DNA from: Halorussus pelagicus
Lineage (GTDB): Archaea > Halobacteriota > Halobacteria > Halobacteriales > Haladaptataceae
Reading direction: 5' to 3'
NCBI RefSeq assembly: GCF_004087835.1
Contig: NZ_CP035120.1
Location: 1-64,000 of the forward strand
DNA length: 64,000 bases
The notes under the pieces were generated by a model. It was not told the origin of the DNA, ran no database searches, and was given only the letters and a program-made list of their open reading frames with translations. A program made the translations under genes and the position numbers. Positions 21,611 through 48,286 of this stretch are shown one piece after another. How positions within the stretch are numbered: position 1 is the first letter of the stretch; every line of letters starts with the position of its first letter.

Positions 21611-21664
21611 CGTTTACGCATGCGTTTGCGTTTCCAGAAACGCAAACGCAAACGTATGCGTACG
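21611..21664. repeat. Hexad dyad cluster A (CGTTTN/NAAACG), also a strong hairpin
   Basis: A large inverted repeat: CGTTTACGCATGCGTTTGCG on the left and CGCAAACGCAAACGTATGCG on the right. The inner part is a perfect 13-bp stem (GCGTTTGCGTTTC / GAAACGCAAACGC) with a 2-base loop. The half sites share the hexad CGTTTN with other intergenic clusters at 22961-23067, 24365-24697, 27165-27230 and 34121-34166. It lies between the GNAT gene and the converging DUF192 gene, so it could also act as a terminator. Confidence 0.75.
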
Positions 21665-22960: not shown

Positions 22961-23067
22961 ATTTCCGAATGCGTTTACGCAAACGTAAACGCATCCGTAA
23001 ATGTTATTTCTCTCACAGGTGTCTGACGAAGGATTAAATGGCTCGTTTGCGTTTGCGCAAACGCAAA
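22961..23067. promoter_or_regulatory. Hexad dyad cluster B: ParA operator-like palindromes
   Basis: Two dyads lie in the 162-bp divergent gap. At 22961-23002 two 19-bp arms pair at 17 positions around CAAA (core GCGTTTACG / CGTAAACGC). At 23046-23067 a perfect 22-bp palindrome is built from TTTGCGTTTGC and its reverse complement; it ends two bases before the parA ATG at 23070. A TATA-like ATTAAAT (23032-23038) lies just upstream, so the palindrome covers the probable transcription start. Direct repression by a bound protein is the simplest reading (inference). Confidence 0.75.
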
Positions 23068-23069
23068 TC

Positions 23070-23960
23070 ATGTCTCGATCCATCCGCGCCTGCACTTTCC
23101 TCGACAAAGGGGGAACGGGCAAGACCACGACGGCGGCCCACCTCGGTGTTGCGCTCGCCGAACAGGGCAACGACGTGTTGCTCATCGACCTCGCTGGCAA
23201 ACAGGGCGACCTCGTCAAGCATTTCGGCCGGTGGGAGACGGTCGAGCGCCAGATTGCCGAGGACGACGACTGGCCAAACATCTCGACAGTCTTTCAAGAC
23301 CAGTGGGGCGCTATCGCCGAGAAGTTGGGCGACGCCGCGGTGGACGACCTCATTCTGGAGACCGACGAGGGCGTTGACCTGATTCCGGCCCATCCAGGAC
23401 TAGACAGTCTCGACGCCGAACTCGGCAACATCGACGACGCCCACGACCGCTACTCGCGTCTCGACTCGTTTCTCGACGAGTACATCGAACCGCTCGGCTA
23501 CGACGCCATCCTCATCGACCTGCCCGGCCTGACGAACAACGTCAGCTACAACGGTCTCTGGGCCGCGCGCAACGTCATCGCGCCGGTCGAGATGGGACCG
23601 TTCGAGTCCGAGCAGGCCGAGGCGCTCCGGGCCGACCTCGACAAAATCGGCGCGAACTTCGACGTGGACGTGGAACTCGCCATGGTTCTCCCGAACAAGG
23701 TAGACACGCGCACGAAACTCGCCGAGGAGTATCTCGACGCCTTCGAGGAGGCCTATCCCGAGGCGTTCGTCTCCTCGCACGTCCCCGTCAGCCAGGACAT
23801 CCGCAACGCCGCCGAATCCGGCCGGACCGCGTTCGCGCTGGAGGACCCCTCGACCACGGCCCGACGCGCGCGCGAAGCATTTCTGGAAAATGCCGCGACG
23901 TTGGTCGAGCGACTGGAAGAGTCCGAGCGCGCCGCTCCGGTCGGAGGTGAGACCGCGTGA
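23070..23960 (+). CDS. parA: ParA/Soj-type partition ATPase
   Basis: A 296-aa deviant Walker A ATPase. The nucleotide site KGGTGKTTTAAHLGVALAEQG starts at about residue 13, with the signature Lys of ParA/MinD proteins. Switch I region LLIDLAGKQGDLVKHFG and Walker B-like AILIDLPGLTNNVSY follow. The C-terminal third (RNAAESGRTAFALEDPSTTARRAREAFLENA) resembles ParA rather than MinD, as no C-terminal amphipathic membrane helix is seen. ATG 23070 is preferred to upstream starts because the earlier frame crosses the TATA box and palindrome. It overlaps the next gene by four bases. Predicted to move a DNA-bound partner complex along the nucleoid. Confidence 0.93.
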   Translation: MSRSIRACTFLDKGGTGKTTTAAHLGVALAEQGNDVLLIDLAGKQGDLVKHFGRWETVERQIAEDDDWPNISTVFQDQWGAIAEKLGDAAVDDLILETDEGVDLIPAHPGLDSLDAELGNIDDAHDRYSRLDSFLDEYIEPLGYDAILIDLPGLTNNVSYNGLWAARNVIAPVEMGPFESEQAEALRADLDKIGANFDVDVELAMVLPNKVDTRTKLAEEYLDAFEEAYPEAFVSSHVPVSQDIRNAAESGRTAFALEDPSTTARRAREAFLENAATLVERLEESERAAPVGGETA

Positions 23961-24349
23961 GCGACCCCGACCTTGAAGAACTCCGCCAGCAGACCCAACG
24001 CACCGACCGTCTCGCCGAACAGGACGCGCGCGAGGACGGCACCGAAGACCTGTTCGAAGACCTCGTGGACGCCATCGCGGCCATCGACTCGGGCGAGCAG
24101 GCTAAGACGTTCGCGGCCAGAGACGAGTCGGTAACCGCGCTCCTCTCGACGCTCGACGACCGCCAGCACGACCTCGAAGCCGTTGGCACCGCCCTGCAAG
24201 GCGCGCTCGGCCGGGAAATCGAGACGGATTCGCTCGACCGGAGCGAAATCGTCCGGCTCGCAGTCCGACTCGGTCTCCGAGAGGCCGCCCCGAAGTATCT
24301 CGATCTGCTTGCCGACGCGTCTGGCGAGTACGCCCGTCGGAACGTCTAA
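23957..24349 (+). CDS. ParA partner, probable ribbon-helix-helix DNA-binding protein
   Basis: A 130-aa acidic protein whose GTG start overlaps the parA stop by four bases, so the two are translationally coupled. The N-terminal about 75 residues are charged and helical (LEELRQQTQRTDRLAEQDARED). The C-terminal part IETDSLDRSEIVRLAVRLGLREAAPKYLDLL fits a ribbon-helix-helix core: a short strand, then a helix with the SRSEIVRxAVRxGL-like pattern. That would make it the centromere-binding partner (ParB/Omega-like) and the natural reader of the surrounding hexad dyads. Family membership is inferred from pattern; no close named family is recognised. Confidence 0.7.
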   Translation: MSDPDLEELRQQTQRTDRLAEQDAREDGTEDLFEDLVDAIAAIDSGEQAKTFAARDESVTALLSTLDDRQHDLEAVGTALQGALGREIETDSLDRSEIVRLAVRLGLREAAPKYLDLLADASGEYARRNV

Positions 24350-24364
24350 AGAAACTATATTTGG

Positions 24365-24697
24365 ACGTTTACGGTATCGTTTTTCATTTCGTTTTCGAAA
24401 CTGGTAACGAAGACGATTACGTTCGCGTTTTCGAAAACGATTGCGTATTCGATTTCGAGTGTGGTTTTGGGTCCGACCCCGCCACTTTCCGACTCCGCTC
24501 CTTCCCGAAGTCGCCTCGCTAGACTACGCTATCGTTTCCGAAACTGCTATCGTAAACCTATACGTTTTCGTTTTCGTTAACAATGCCGTCGGTGTTCGAA
24601 CAACTGCACTGGCGAATCCTGCGCTCAAAATCGACCGACGACCGACTTTCAGGCCGGAAACGTTTGCGTAAACGATATCGTAAGCGAAAATGCAAAT
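24365..24697. repeat. Hexad dyad cluster C downstream of the ParA operon
   Basis: The non-coding region after the operon carries many copies of CGTTTN or its reverse complement: CGTTTACGG at 24366, CGTTTTCGAAAC at about 24390, a perfect palindrome CGTTTTCGAAAACG at 24426-24439, CGTTTCCGAAAC at about 24533, CGTTTTCGTTTTCG at about 24563, and CGTTTGCGTAAACG at 24661-24674. In places hexads abut with a 6-bp period. The layout is that of an array of binding sites for a small DNA-binding protein and resembles plasmid centromeres in organisation. Confidence 0.72.
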
Positions 24698-24780
24698 GTC
24701 TTCGAGCGCGTCGCTCGAAAATAACTACGTACTGACACTCGACGTGGAGATTGATAACGGATGCCGACGTACCTCGGTTC

Positions 24781-26326: not shown

Positions 26327-27061
26327 CTATCGGGACGGAGCGGTTAAGCATTCCATACTCACGGACTCGAGCCACGTCTCCGCGACGGTCGAGTCGTCGG
26401 CCAGACTGGCGCGCGGGATGGCAACGATTCGGACCTCGTCGCCGTCCGACACGGCGTCGGTCAGGTCGTGTTCGAGCAGGACTGGGAGTTCCGCCTCACC
26501 CGTGGGGTCCCGAACGCGGACCTCCCGCGCGTCAACGTAGTCGCTGGTCTCCGGCGCGAACGAGAGATAGCCCACCGAACTGCACCGCGGACACTTGGCG
26601 TGCGCCTGGAACTCGCGGCCGGGTTGGGCGACGTAGCGCGTTACCGTCTCGCACTTTGCGCATCGGAACCCCGCCCGGACGACTTTCGGCCGAACTGGGC
26701 CGGTGTCGGCGACGACGCCGTGAACGGTGTGTAATTCGTTCAGATGGCTCGCCCGAATGTCCTCTAGGGCCACCTCGCTCTCGTCGGGCAGGTTGCTGAC
26801 CCGGAGGTACACGTCCTGCATCTCGCGGTCTACTCCGTCGTCGAGGACTCGTCTGAGCGCCGCTTTCCCGGCGCGAAGCGCCTCGTCGGGGTTGCGCAGG
26901 AGCGGCCGGACGAACTGGTAGTCGTGTCCGAACCGGTCGCAATTCACCGACAGCGCGCGCTCGTCGGGGTATCGCTCCACGAACCGACGCACCGATTCGC
27001 CGCGGTCGCGGTACACGTACTCGTACCACTTTTCCGTTAGGTTCCCGCTTCGAACTGACAT
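26327..27061 (-). CDS. Stand-alone MCM N-terminal OB-fold domain protein, no AAA+ motor
   Basis: A 244-aa protein that aligns by eye with the N-terminal part of archaeal MCM helicases. It has a helical A domain (about 1-105, ...PDEALRAGKAALRRVLDDGV), then MCM-type OB-fold features LHTVHGVVADTGPVRPKVVRAGFRCAKCETV with zinc knuckles FRCAKC and AKCPRCSSVGY, and EFIDAQ-like YVDAREVRVRDP. After VRIVAIP the protein ends; the AAA+ ATPase and winged helix are absent, so it cannot unwind DNA alone. It might modulate the MCM ring or bind single-stranded DNA. ATG at 27061. It could be a relic of a full paralog, but the frame is intact. Confidence 0.8.
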   Translation of the reverse strand: MSVRSGNLTEKWYEYVYRDRGESVRRFVERYPDERALSVNCDRFGHDYQFVRPLLRNPDEALRAGKAALRRVLDDGVDREMQDVYLRVSNLPDESEVALEDIRASHLNELHTVHGVVADTGPVRPKVVRAGFRCAKCETVTRYVAQPGREFQAHAKCPRCSSVGYLSFAPETSDYVDAREVRVRDPTGEAELPVLLEHDLTDAVSDGDEVRIVAIPRASLADDSTVAETWLESVSMECLTAPSR

Positions 27062-27366
27062 GGAGTTCGCTTCTCGCCTTTCGGCCTTTGTTATGCGGTT
27101 CCTGTCTGTTTGTGTGCGTCGAGTGGCGCGAACCTACGCCCGCAATCTGCTCGCTCGATAGCTAGTTTACGTTTTCGTTTACGATTTCGTTTGCGGAAGC
27201 GATTACGTTACTATTTACGCTTCTCGAAACCCGGCCTGCGACGACGACTCGCCGCGTCGTCGAGAGGTCGCCCACGACACCGCTTCGTCGGTAAACATTC
27301 GTTATCTTTCCTGATAACTGTCGGGTAGTTTTAAATCTCTAGAGTGGGACACGACTAACTAACGAA
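27062..27366. other. Intergenic region between MCM-like and small membrane genes
   Basis: About 305 bp with no gene. It contains hexad cluster D (27165-27230) and, near 27329-27337, the TATA-like TTTTAAATC of the rightward gene. A TAGCTAG motif at about 27160 also occurs in the interspersed element copies at 36 kb and 49.6 kb. Confidence 0.55.
27165..27230. repeat. Hexad dyad cluster D
   Basis: Repeated TTTACG/TTTTCG/TTTGCG blocks: TTTACGTTTTCGTTTACG, then ATTTCGTTTGCGGAAGCG, then ATTACG and TTTACGC, ending at TCTCGAAAC. The half sites match those around the ParA operon, 4.1 kb upstream, although here direct repeats dominate over palindromes. The cluster is in the upstream region of the MCM-like gene and could serve as a regulatory or anchoring site (inference). 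Confidence 0.65.
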
Positions 27367-34120: not shown

Positions 34121-34166
34121 GCGTTTACGAAAACGTAACCGATTTCGAAAACGAAACTGTAAACGC
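34121..34166. repeat. Hexad dyad cluster E
   Basis: Outer arms GCGTTTAC and GTAAACGC form a perfect inverted repeat. Between them are CGAAAACG, then CGATTTCGAAAACGAAAC, again made of CGTTTN/NAAACG half sites. It is 11 kb from the ParA operon and lies between the HTTM gene start and the end of the thioredoxin-like gene. Same motif family as clusters A-D. Confidence 0.65.
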
Positions 34167-34180
34167 TGGATTCGAGCGTC

Positions 34181-44748: not shown

Positions 44749-44893
44749 ACGGCTTTCCTCAAACCCCCACTACTCAAATGTTACCCTGGCTGTCAATCGA
44801 TAGAAATAAATCTTGTGGCCATCTGTCGGAAAACCAACGACGGAATTTACGGGAACGCAAGCCGTTTGTTTGTCGCTCTCGTACCGCCGTTCA

Positions 44894-47800
44894 GTGACCG
44901 ACGCAGACGACGAGACGGACGAACTCGATTTTGACGACGACGCGCCGAGCGAGAACCGGGGGACAGACGCGGCCGAAGACGGGGAGGTCGGGAACGACGA
45001 CGATAATCAGACCGAGGCGGAAACCGAACCGGTGGACGTGGAGTCGTTCCACGACGCTGTCGAACAGTTCGGCCGCCCGGTCGTCACCGCCGAGGAGGTC
45101 GCTCGCGCGCTTGACCGCTCGCAGGCCGAGACCGACGACGCGCTGGCGGGACTCGCAGAAGGCGAGGGCGTCGAACGCCTCGACGTGTCCAACGACCCCG
45201 TGGTCTGGTACCCAACCGACTGGGGGAACCTCGCCGACCGCGAGCGCGTCATCGTCTTCCCGAAGCGCCGCGAACTGGTCGTGGACCAACCGACCCAGTT
45301 CACGCGGGCGCAACTCTCGCAGTTTGCCCACCTCGTGGATACGACGCGCGACGGCGGTTACATCTACGAGATTCGCCAAGAGGACGTGTGGGCCGCGCCG
45401 TTCGACGACTTCGAGGACCTTCGTGGCACTCTCCGGGACGTGCTTCCCGAGCGGTCGCCCCACCTCGAAGAGTGGATGGAGAGCCAATGGAAGCGCGCCC
45501 GCCAGTTCGTTCTCCGGACCGACGACGAAGACGGCTATGTCGTCCTCGAAGCGGCGAGCGAGGACCTGATGGGCAACGTCGCCCGCCAGAAGCTGGACGC
45601 GGGCCAGTTGCGCGCGCCGCTCTCGGACACCGAAAGCTGGGTCGCCGAGGAGTCGGTCGCCGAGGTCAAGCGCATCCTCTACGAGGCCGGGTATCCGGTC
45701 CGCGACGAGCGCGACCTCGAAACCGGCGAGGAGTTGGACGTGCAGTTGAACCTCCGACTCCGAGACTATCAGCAGGAGTGGGTGAACGAGTTCGTCCAGA
45801 CCAAATCCGGCGTCCTCGTCGGCCCGCCGGGGAGTGGCAAGACGGTCGCCGGGATGGGCGCGTTGGAGACTGTCGGCGGCGAGACCCTGATTCTGGTGCC
45901 GGGCCGAGAACTCGCCAGCCAGTGGCACGACGAACTGCTCGCGCACACGACGCTCACGCCCGAGCAAATCGGCGAGTACCACGGCGGCACGAAGGACGTG
46001 CGCCCCGTCACGATTGCGACCTACCAGACCGCCGGGATGGATAGACACCGGCAACTGTTCGACCAGCGCGAGTGGGGCCTGATTATCTACGACGAATGCT
46101 TGAGTGGAGACACTATCGTAGAAACTCAGTCCGGACGTACGACGTTCGCTGAATTAGATGAGAACTTTGGGTTTGACTCGGGTTGGAACCGAGACATTGA
46201 TCTCTCAGTTCGAACATACCTACCGGAAGATGGAAACTACACTTGGACAGACGTACAGGGCGTATACAAGACCGAATCAGCGGTTCAGCGTATAGAAACA
46301 AATACTGGTCGTAGACTAGAAGCAACTCCAAATCACACGCATCTTGTCTTCGACCCCCAAACGGGGAAAGTTGAAGAACAAAAACACATTGAGCAAGGGG
46401 ATTTCCTCGTTCAGCCTCATAAACAGACCGAAACTCCGAGTTCGACTTCAGAGGCGGCTGATTTGACGAAACAGGAAGCACGTGCCGAGTTGATGGGTTG
46501 GTTCATCGGTGATGGCCATTTAAACCAGTATGGAGATGTGAAATTCTCGTTTGCCCGGCGAGCCGAGAGACAGGTGGAGATTCTTCAGGACCTCTGTGAA
46601 TGTCTCGATACGGAGTATTCCGTTTTCGACAACTCTCGGGGTGATCTGACCCTTTGGGCACCGAAACTACAAACTGAACTAAACTGGACTGGAGCAAGCG
46701 GCGATAAAGCAAGCTCAGTTACAGCACCGAAGGAGTGCTACTGCTGGTCGAAAGCTAAAATCGGTGCTCTTCTTCGAGGTCTCTTCGACGCCGAGGGGTC
46801 CGTCGATAAGAAAGGTCGTATCCAGTTCAATTCCGTGTCTGAGCAACTAGCGACGGACGTAACACTCCTTCTCCAGAAGCTTGGAATCCTCTCTCGAACG
46901 TTCGAAATTGACCGCAGCGACGAGGCGCACAACGACATCTACCGAGTGACGATTCCCTCGTACTATGGAGGCCATTTTGAGGAGCAGGTTGGCTTCCAAT
47001 TACAGCATAAGGCCGAACGAATCTGTGGGGGAGAATCACCGGCTACTGGGCTTCCAGTTGGCCCATATCTCCAGCAATTGAAAGAGGATATAAATCTGAC
47101 CAACGAGGAGATTGCGGAGATGTGTGACGTAGCAAGAGTCACTATCTCTGACGTGATAAACGGGAAATACCGGCTCGGTCAACAACATCTCCATACTTTA
47201 GCCAAGTCGCTTCAACGGTATGCAGACGAAGACAGAGGTACTCCGCAAGAAATCCGGGAGCGTTATAATATCACGTACTCGGAGATCGCAGAAGTAGCGG
47301 ACTCACCGCAAACGACGGTGTACAAACGATTTCAGCGCGAGGAGAAGGCGACGGTTCAAACGACGGTGGATATCGCCAAACGACGACGAAAAGCTGCTCG
47401 AAAGCACGCCGACCGTCTCGAAAAGCTGGACGGACTTATGTTCTTAGAAGTCACCGATGTCGAAAGTATCGGTACTAAAACCGTTTACGACTTTGAGACA
47501 GAAGCTCACACATTCCTTGCCGATGGCTTCTTGACTCACAACTGCCACCACATTCCGAGTCGGGTTTTCCGAAGGTCGGCAGACCTTCAGAGCAAGCACC
47601 GCCTTGGGCTTAGTGCTACTCCTGTCAGAGAGTCTGACGATGAAGAAGAAATCTTCACCCTCATCGGGCCGCCCATCGGTACCGACTGGGACGCGCTGTT
47701 CGACGCCGGATACGTCCAAGAACCGGAGGTACAGATTCGATATGTCCCGTGGGACGACGAGACTTACCGCCACGAGTACGGGAGCGCCGAGGGCCACGAG

Positions 47801-48286
47801 AAGCGCCAGATAGCCGCGAGCAACCCCGCGAAGGTGGCCGAGATTCGCCACCTGCGGGCCGAACACCCCCACGCGAAGACCCTCGTCTTCGTGGAGTATC
47901 TCGACCAAGGCGAGGAGTTGGCCGAGGCGCTGAACGTCCCCTTCATCTCGGGGGAGATGCGCCACGCGCGCCGCGAGCAGTTGCTCCAGCAGTTCAAGTC
48001 GGGCGAGCGCGATGCCTTGATAGTCTCGCGCGTCGGCGACGAGGGTATCGACCTGCCCGACGCCGAGTTGGCCATCGTCGCGTCCGGTCTCGGCGGGTCC
48101 CGGCGACAGGGCGCACAGCGGGCAGGCCGGACGATGCGCCCGACCGGGAACTCCCGGATGTACGTCCTCGCCACGCGGGGGACGACCGAGGAGGACTTCG
48201 CGCGTCGCCGGATGCAACACCTCTCGGCGAAGGGCGTCCGCGTCACCGAGCAGGGCGCGGACGCCGTCGAGGACCGACGACCGTAG
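44894..48286 (+). CDS. XPB/Rad25-like DEAH helicase containing an intein
   Basis: A 1130-aa precursor; the spliced protein would be about 648 aa. After an acidic tail come about 250 residues of N-terminal domains with XPB-like features (YIYEIRQEDVWAAPF). Walker A GPPGSGKTVAGMGALE (~311). The DEAH box is interrupted at IIYDE|CHH by an intein. Then LGLSATPVR (motif III), TLVFVEYLDQGEELAEAL, VSRVGDEGIDLP and QRAGRTMRP (motif VI). This is an ATP-dependent DNA helicase/translocase of nucleotide-excision or transcription-repair type; haloarchaeal XPB (Rad25) partners are not in the window. GTG 44894 was chosen; an upstream start adds 27 non-conserved residues. Confidence 0.9.
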   Translation: MTDADDETDELDFDDDAPSENRGTDAAEDGEVGNDDDNQTEAETEPVDVESFHDAVEQFGRPVVTAEEVARALDRSQAETDDALAGLAEGEGVERLDVSNDPVVWYPTDWGNLADRERVIVFPKRRELVVDQPTQFTRAQLSQFAHLVDTTRDGGYIYEIRQEDVWAAPFDDFEDLRGTLRDVLPERSPHLEEWMESQWKRARQFVLRTDDEDGYVVLEAASEDLMGNVARQKLDAGQLRAPLSDTESWVAEESVAEVKRILYEAGYPVRDERDLETGEELDVQLNLRLRDYQQEWVNEFVQTKSGVLVGPPGSGKTVAGMGALETVGGETLILVPGRELASQWHDELLAHTTLTPEQIGEYHGGTKDVRPVTIATYQTAGMDRHRQLFDQREWGLIIYDECLSGDTIVETQSGRTTFAELDENFGFDSGWNRDIDLSVRTYLPEDGNYTWTDVQGVYKTESAVQRIETNTGRRLEATPNHTHLVFDPQTGKVEEQKHIEQGDFLVQPHKQTETPSSTSEAADLTKQEARAELMGWFIGDGHLNQYGDVKFSFARRAERQVEILQDLCECLDTEYSVFDNSRGDLTLWAPKLQTELNWTGASGDKASSVTAPKECYCWSKAKIGALLRGLFDAEGSVDKKGRIQFNSVSEQLATDVTLLLQKLGILSRTFEIDRSDEAHNDIYRVTIPSYYGGHFEEQVGFQLQHKAERICGGESPATGLPVGPYLQQLKEDINLTNEEIAEMCDVARVTISDVINGKYRLGQQHLHTLAKSLQRYADEDRGTPQEIRERYNITYSEIAEVADSPQTTVYKRFQREEKATVQTTVDIAKRRRKAARKHADRLEKLDGLMFLEVTDVESIGTKTVYDFETEAHTFLADGFLTHNCHHIPSRVFRRSADLQSKHRLGLSATPVRESDDEEEIFTLIGPPIGTDWDALFDAGYVQEPEVQIRYVPWDDETYRHEYGSAEGHEKRQIAASNPAKVAEIRHLRAEHPHAKTLVFVEYLDQGEELAEALNVPFISGEMRHARREQLLQQFKSGERDALIVSRVGDEGIDLPDAELAIVASGLGGSRRQGAQRAGRTMRPTGNSRMYVLATRGTTEEDFARRRMQHLSAKGVRVTEQGADAVEDRRP
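46097..47542 (+). mobile_element. Intein with LAGLIDADG endonuclease and HTH insert in the Walker B of the helicase
   Basis: A 482-residue in-frame intervening sequence. It begins with Cys in CLSGDTIVETQSGR (block A) and ends FLADGFLTHN, followed by Cys+1 (CHH). Block B-like ATPNHTHLVFDP is present. Dodecapeptide motifs LMGWFIGDGHLN and LLRGLFDAEGSV indicate a homing endonuclease of the LAGLIDADG type. Between the endonuclease and the C-terminal splicing block is a pair of Xre-like HTH segments (NLTNEEIAEMCDVARVTISDVINGKYRLG and NITYSEIAEVADSPQTTVYKRFQ). G+C is lower than in the host gene, so the intein is foreign DNA. Splicing residues (N-terminal Cys, HN end, Cys+1) look intact. Confidence 0.95.

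Follow-up and report, generated by a model that had tools for sequence, protein, structure and literature searches.

Phased 12-bp repeat arrays around a haloarchaeal parA-parX operon: a probable centromere and operator

Phased repeat arrays surround a small partition operon on a 303-kb replicon of a Halorussus species, and they very likely serve the ParA-ParX system that keeps this replicon, both as its centromere (parS) and as its autoregulatory operator. The window, that is, the whole 64,000-nucleotide stretch of DNA that was analyzed, is part of that replicon (contig C2). The operon shows three traits of a type I partition module: a ParA with a deviant Walker A motif, a small partner in the same operon and a cis-acting repeat site alongside. 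An earlier sequence-only reading had remarked that a centromere-like locus would look like this, a view now supported by the clustering of arrays at parA, the conservation of their positions, their decay where parA-parX is missing and the same layout at other haloarchaeal operons. How haloarchaeal replicons are segregated and what archaeal centromeres look like have been named as open questions (PMC5120986). Haloarchaea are polyploid with several megaplasmids, and the arrays would bear on how these replicons are segregated. Neither a haloarchaeal plasmid centromere nor an earlier report of these arrays was found in the open-access literature searched.

Arrays around the operon

The features of the replicon discussed here are as follows.

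21611–21664, unstranded: phased hexads lying past the DUF192/DUF456 genes; L092–L097 have counterparts at about −2.0 to −2.6 kb
22966–23007, unstranded: phased hexad array 5' of the parA promoter; matched in close relatives by an array about −1.0 kb from the parX start
23017–23040, plus strand: parA core promoter, a TGTCTGACG box and then a TATA-like ATTAAAT
23044–23067, unstranded: putative operator array in the TATA box-to-ATG gap, two CGTTTG hexads followed by two CGCAAA hexads; near-identical across Halorussus
23070–23960, plus strand: parA, Walker-type partition ATPase of 296 aa, deviant Walker A motif KGGTGKT
23957–24349, plus strand: parX, 130 aa, proposed to encode the protein that binds the arrays; its GTG start codon overlaps the parA stop (GTGA)
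24366–24461, unstranded: main downstream array, 16 in-phase hexads including CGTTTTCGAAAACG; score 40.7, the best of the replicon
24521–24580, unstranded: second downstream array, phased hexads
24655–24714, unstranded: third downstream array, phased hexads including CGTTTGCGTAAACG
27164–27223, unstranded: array beyond the PadR and MCM-OB-like genes; Halorussus relatives have counterparts at about +2.9 to +3.3 kb
34122–34169, unstranded: outer array of the cluster, phased hexads
C2:116236–116277 and C2:242273–242326, unstranded: two distant arrays (L059, L065), conserved at orthologous loci in other Halorussus; they adjoin a beta-eliminating lyase gene and an HTH (HVO_1552_C-type) gene

The sequence-only reading had described a dense array of hexad sites right after the ParA operon, at 24365–24697. 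The density is confirmed: these 333 bp hold 11 CGTTT/AAACG words where 0.56 would be expected, and this interval is the peak CGTTT/AAACG density of the entire 303-kb replicon. Both perfect dyads named in that reading are present, CGTTTTCGAAAACG at 24426–24439 as a single copy in the 3.49-Mb genome and CGTTTGCGTAAACG at 24661–24674 with one other copy on the replicon, at 116248. The location 3' of the ParA operon also stands, but the extent given was too narrow: the arrays span 21.6–34.2 kb and include the ParA promoter. Within the interval, the sites resolve into three phased tracts, one of 16 hexads at 24366–24461, where 14 of the 16 in-phase hexads start with CG, and two of ten hexads apiece at 24521–24580 and 24655–24714; CG is thus retained at 6-bp intervals over long stretches just 3' of the operon. 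Across the replicon, the stretch from 21.6 to 34.2 kb contains seven strong tracts, and two further ones are at 116.2 and 242.3 kb. Arrays occupy the ParA TATA box-to-ATG gap, the DNA just 3' of the ParA-ParX operon and intergenic gaps 2–10 kb to either side.

Markov-3 shuffles of the replicon (n=150) gave a top tract score of 15.0, whereas nine real tracts score at least 17.5 and the top one 40.7. Sampled DNA of the chromosome (the 3.02-Mb contig C1) and of the 112-kb contig (C3), 160 kb in all, contained no tract that reached 12.6. The tract score was devised after the sequence had been seen, and pattern counts and other genomes therefore weigh more. The pattern CGWWWNCGWWWNCGWWW has 25 matches in the 3.49-Mb genome, all but seven of them within 21.6–34.2 kb of the 303-kb contig, and its reversed control has one genome-wide match. 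Genome-wide statements draw on such pattern searches, the complete 303-kb contig and the 160 kb of sampled control sequence; the independent tests are the pattern counts, the congeners, the genomes lacking parX and the lag spectrum in other genera. Because shuffles, sampled DNA and pattern counts all show local enrichment, the doubt raised by the earlier reading itself, that the motif might be as common in other intergenic DNA, is not borne out. Two points would fit an origin by chance or base composition, in AT-rich DNA between the genes of a GC-rich genome: the arrays contain more AT than the genome at large, and the score was tailored to them. Yet that explanation retains a negligible probability, being refuted by the shuffles, the reversed-pattern controls, genus-wide conservation and a 12-bp lag peak in independent plasmids.

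The strong hexads are CGTTTN or its inverse, NAAACG, and they recur every 12 bp. Hexad repeats had been correctly recognized from the start, although the true period of the strong ones is 12 bp. Among 79 Halorussus arrays, CGTTTN follows CGTTTN at 12 bp 54 times against 26.6 expected, and inverted hexads do so 46 times against 20.7, while same-direction hexads at 6 and 18 bp are near expectation. Given this same-direction recurrence, the repeat unit is 12 bp, which after the spacing counts replaced the 6-bp hexad in that role. In the same arrays, forward hexads stand to the left of inverted ones and hence point inward, and each array tends toward a long dyad.

In Halorussus and in many other operons, a TGTCTGACG-N3/4-TTTTA box precedes ParA and an array sits between the box and the ATG; in the window this is the short perfect tract CGTTTGCGTTTGCGCAAACGCAAA (23044–23067), 5' of the parA ATG. 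TCTGACG is found 40–70 bp 5' of the ATG of ParA in Halorussus operons as well as in 28 of 51 others. The box is conserved whatever the array word (L113, L114, L116, L139, L170 and others) and is longer than the usual BRE/TATA element. An array between promoter box and ATG is what ParX autorepression would look like, and judging by its position the array before ParA is very probably an operator as well. Such placement, exactly between the parA TATA box and the ATG in Halorussus and most other operons, could also mean that the arrays are operators only, through which ParX represses parAX and neighboring genes with no centromere role. The remaining arrays in intergenic gaps and the distant sites beside a lyase gene and an HTH gene fit that account, but the strongest array lies past the 3' end of the operon, the arrays group around parA rather than spread as in a regulon, the downstream array is kept in relatives as regularly as the upstream one, and in plasmid systems of the ribbon-helix-helix (RHH) type one set of sites serves both functions (PMC9499535). 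We therefore regard a purely regulatory role as unlikely and favor a combined centromere and operator.

Conservation and loss in Halorussus

The relatives of the locus are Halorussus. parX occurs in 13 of 17 other congeners at 74–95% identity, on contigs of up to 560 kb. Arrays follow ParX at all 14 close Halorussus loci, and at nearly all of them an array before ParA exceeds the score threshold; the array bases differ among Halorussus though the positions match. Six loci of 16–20 kb carry 6–8 arrays each at matching relative positions, and, measured from the parX start, the recurrent ones lie at about −2.0 to −2.6, −1.0, +0.4 to +0.8 and +3 kb, with a further one often at +4 to +5 kb. The DNA beside the two distant sites aligns at 78–90% to the neighborhoods of distant arrays in three other species. 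In the genome G002, one and the same distant array is present, along with its flank, at two places of a single replicon (C2, 0.5 kb and 383.8 kb; L197 and L196), pointing to a duplication or an assembly artefact.

Matches to the array pattern number 14–44 per genome with parX and 0, 4 and 7 in three near-complete genomes without it; a 62% complete genome with no clear parX (G011) has 11. Two Halorussus genomes, G001 and G017, lack parA-parX yet keep the neighbors (HTH, PadR, MCM-OB-like and PALP genes) at 57–94% identity, with PadR at 91–94%, the MCM-OB-like protein at 64–65% and a 222-aa winged-helix protein at 57–73%. No array was found in 29 kb of G001, and G017 has two degenerate arrays in 34 kb (C2, about 243.8 kb and 252.4 kb; L119 and L120), possibly relics of a lost system. 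Since the neighbors are kept while the arrays are lost or degenerate, the arrays track the presence of parA-parX rather than that of the neighboring regulators. It is correspondingly very improbable that they are operators of the winged-helix protein or of PadR with no link to ParA. The genes for the two regulators are no more than 2 kb away, and conservation of PadR is high, but G001 and G017 retain the two at 57–94% identity with arrays absent or degenerate, and the same layout occurs at ParA-ParX operons with different annotated neighbors. The MCM-OB-like gene itself (26327–27061, minus strand) encodes a 244-aa protein that matches only the OB part of MCM helicase; it adjoins the par locus in Halorussus and is also present in the parA-parX-less G001, with one in-frame TAG, and G017.

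ParX and the repeat words of other operons

ParA matches AAA_31 (1.2e-18) and CbiA (5.1e-16) in Pfam, and its nearest solved relatives in the PDB are Soj/ParA segregation proteins. Its partner, for which the name parX is given in this analysis, has no family above cut-off in Pfam and none in NCBIfam or PDB searches. A weak match to the DUF7310 coiled coil and WD-repeat matches to its KTxSxWD segment were rejected as due to chance or composition. The best-conserved segments of ParX are an N-terminal DLEELRxQTQxGDR, a short KTxSxWD/RD and, near the C-terminus, DRSEIxRLAxRLGL. Two AlphaFold models of modest overall confidence (pLDDT 74 and 67), low in the key segment, are all-helical and lack any strand; neither contains a ribbon-helix-helix or has a fold match among solved structures. 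The KTxSxWD/RD segment, which precedes the helices, may suit an RHH strand. The two other ParA genes of this genome (G000:C3 at 48.6 kb and C4 at 15.7 kb; L090 and L091) have different small partners of 147 and 150 aa, and the three replicons thus seem to use three partition types.

The ParX family is found in 85 of 392 Halobacteriales genomes and in 27 listed plasmid records, and it adjoins ParA in the annotated plasmid records examined; no relatives were found in the scanned viral contigs. In the flanks of 62 non-redundant ParA-ParX operons outside Halorussus (the 140 bp preceding ParA and the 150 bp following ParX), repeats peak at lag 12 (mean z 2.33), followed by lags 24, 6 and 18; other lags in these operons are near 0, with nothing comparable. 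The word itself varies. CGTTTG accompanies ParX types PKTIAVRD, GKTIAVRD and AKTFAARD; CGTATA/CGTATC accompanies SKTLSVRD; CTATAG goes with QKTVSVWD and kin; CATATA is found with QRTVSFWD and HPNVSVRD, and CGATAA/CGATAC with TQSFGAKD and NRSLGCRD. CTATAG copies are spaced 12, 24 and 36 bp, forming CTATAG-N6 words. At L167, 3' of ParX, near-exact copies of the 12-mer CGTTTGCGCTTA stand head to tail, a pattern suggestive of array growth by complete 12-bp units. Some distant members of the family (L049, L050 and L149–L152) have weak or no recognizable arrays in the flanks examined.

The words track a ParX tree built without the word-correlated residues, with 11 changes against 32 when shuffled; operons L178, L179 and L183, whose flank placement is uncertain, were left out. 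Different words can coexist in one genome with different ParX proteins, as in a Haladaptatus (G026) with CTATAG at L123 and CGTAT at L173, and in G008 with CGTTT on C5 and CATAT at L184, which argues that ParX is the reader of the arrays. Another reading of the arrays is a replication origin with initiator iterons. Iteron-like repeats near a plasmid maintenance gene would be in keeping with an origin, but the array words follow ParX and not an initiator, and the only Orc1/Cdc6 gene above cut-off on the contig lies at 266.9–267.9 kb, about 60 kb off even if the contig is circular; this explanation has very little probability. Returning to the readout of the arrays by ParX, residue 53 is A with TTT and S with TAT, and residue 55 is R with CG and W with C/G. 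The scheme fits 20 of 21 A53 cases, and Fisher tests are strong yet phylogeny-dependent; because the words follow clades, the residue-to-word link comprises only 3–5 independent changes, too few to establish a code. It is possible, though we would stop a little short of calling it probable, that ParX is a new archaeal centromere-binding family that reads 12-bp repeats via residues 49–56 (P0002 numbering), residue 53 setting TTT or TAT and residue 55 the CG versus C/G outer bases. Each haloarchaeal replicon could then have its own centromere word, allowing several megaplasmids to be sorted in one polyploid cell.

Relation to known partition systems

In layout, the system is close to type Ib ParABS. 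The delta-omega-parS system of the Streptococcus plasmid pSM19035, with its RHH ParB, likewise pairs a small ParA lacking an N-terminal HTH with a small partner, and its parS consists of contiguous short direct and inverted repeats at several sites overlapping promoters (PMC9499535). There, the contiguous promoter repeats double as operator and parS, and triggering of ParA requires a minimum of four (PMC9499535). The pSM19035 repeats are WATCACW heptads with a 7-bp beat, in contrast to the 6/12-bp beat here, and WATCACW is not enriched at this locus (0 in 21.5–27.3 kb). Overlap of repeats with the operon promoter, seen here as the array from TATA box to ATG, is a trait shared with RHH/type Ib systems. 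In ParF-ParG-parH of TP228, too, the protein encoded after ParA is small, binds the centromere and has an N-terminal tail for contact with ParA, and the repeats are short and degenerate; the parH repeat word and spacing differ from those here. ParX, at 130 aa, is longer than TP228 ParG, and the PDB profile search gave no ParG match. By analogy, the system would be a haloarchaeal variant of RHH-type ParABS; membership in the RHH family is not claimed, because the ParX models are all-helical, have low confidence in the key segment and lack a fold match.

Among archaeal systems, SegA-SegB of Sulfolobales and some Euryarchaeota also pairs a ParA-type ATPase with a DNA-binding protein specific to archaea, whose gene overlaps the 3' end of the ATPase gene, and has sites clustered near the operon as well as distant ones (PMC12284271, PMC5120986). 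SegB sites, however, are single palindromes (TCTAGAsTCTAGA), mostly intragenic, rather than phased arrays mostly in intergenic gaps, and SegAB resides on the main chromosome whereas ParA-ParX is on a secondary replicon. TCTAGAsTCTAGA has 0 matches on the 303-kb replicon, and a profile of 16 ParX sequences against the PDB yielded no SegB chain at E <= 1; identity with SegAB is rejected by sequence and by site. The Sulfolobus plasmid pNOB8 provides another archaeal plasmid partition system with a ParA, AspA-ParB-ParA, which spreads on DNA from a palindromic site (PMC5120986). It comprises three proteins, including a winged-helix AspA, and a 23-bp palindrome, in contrast to the two proteins and 12-bp arrays here. 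A bacterial ParB-CTPase parS system is likewise rejected: the 16-bp site TGTTNCACGTGAAACA, tried in two common forms, has 0 matches, and ParX has no ParB match in Pfam.

A mechanism can be proposed in which ParX, probably as a dimer, would occupy one 12-bp unit, and adjacent units would be filled side by side and cooperatively, so that every array would carry a patch of nucleoprotein. With the hexads converging, CGTTTN on the left and NAAACG on the right, each array would form an extended dyad. Bound to the array between TATA box and ATG, ParX would repress parAX; on the downstream and flanking arrays it would build the partition complex. The N-terminal DLEELRxQTQxGDR segment is the likely ParA contact, and ParA-ATP on the host nucleoid could pull or position the replicon. 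The two conserved distant sites may serve as extra loading sites.

The arrays offer a portable test object: a delimited stretch of DNA, two genes and a set of compared words from which the pairing of each ParX with an array can be predicted. If confirmed, they could provide stable vectors and a tool for labeling haloarchaeal replicons in live cells. Elsewhere in the window, an XPB/RAD25-type helicase gene at 44813–48286 carries an apparent intein with a LAGLIDADG homing endonuclease domain.
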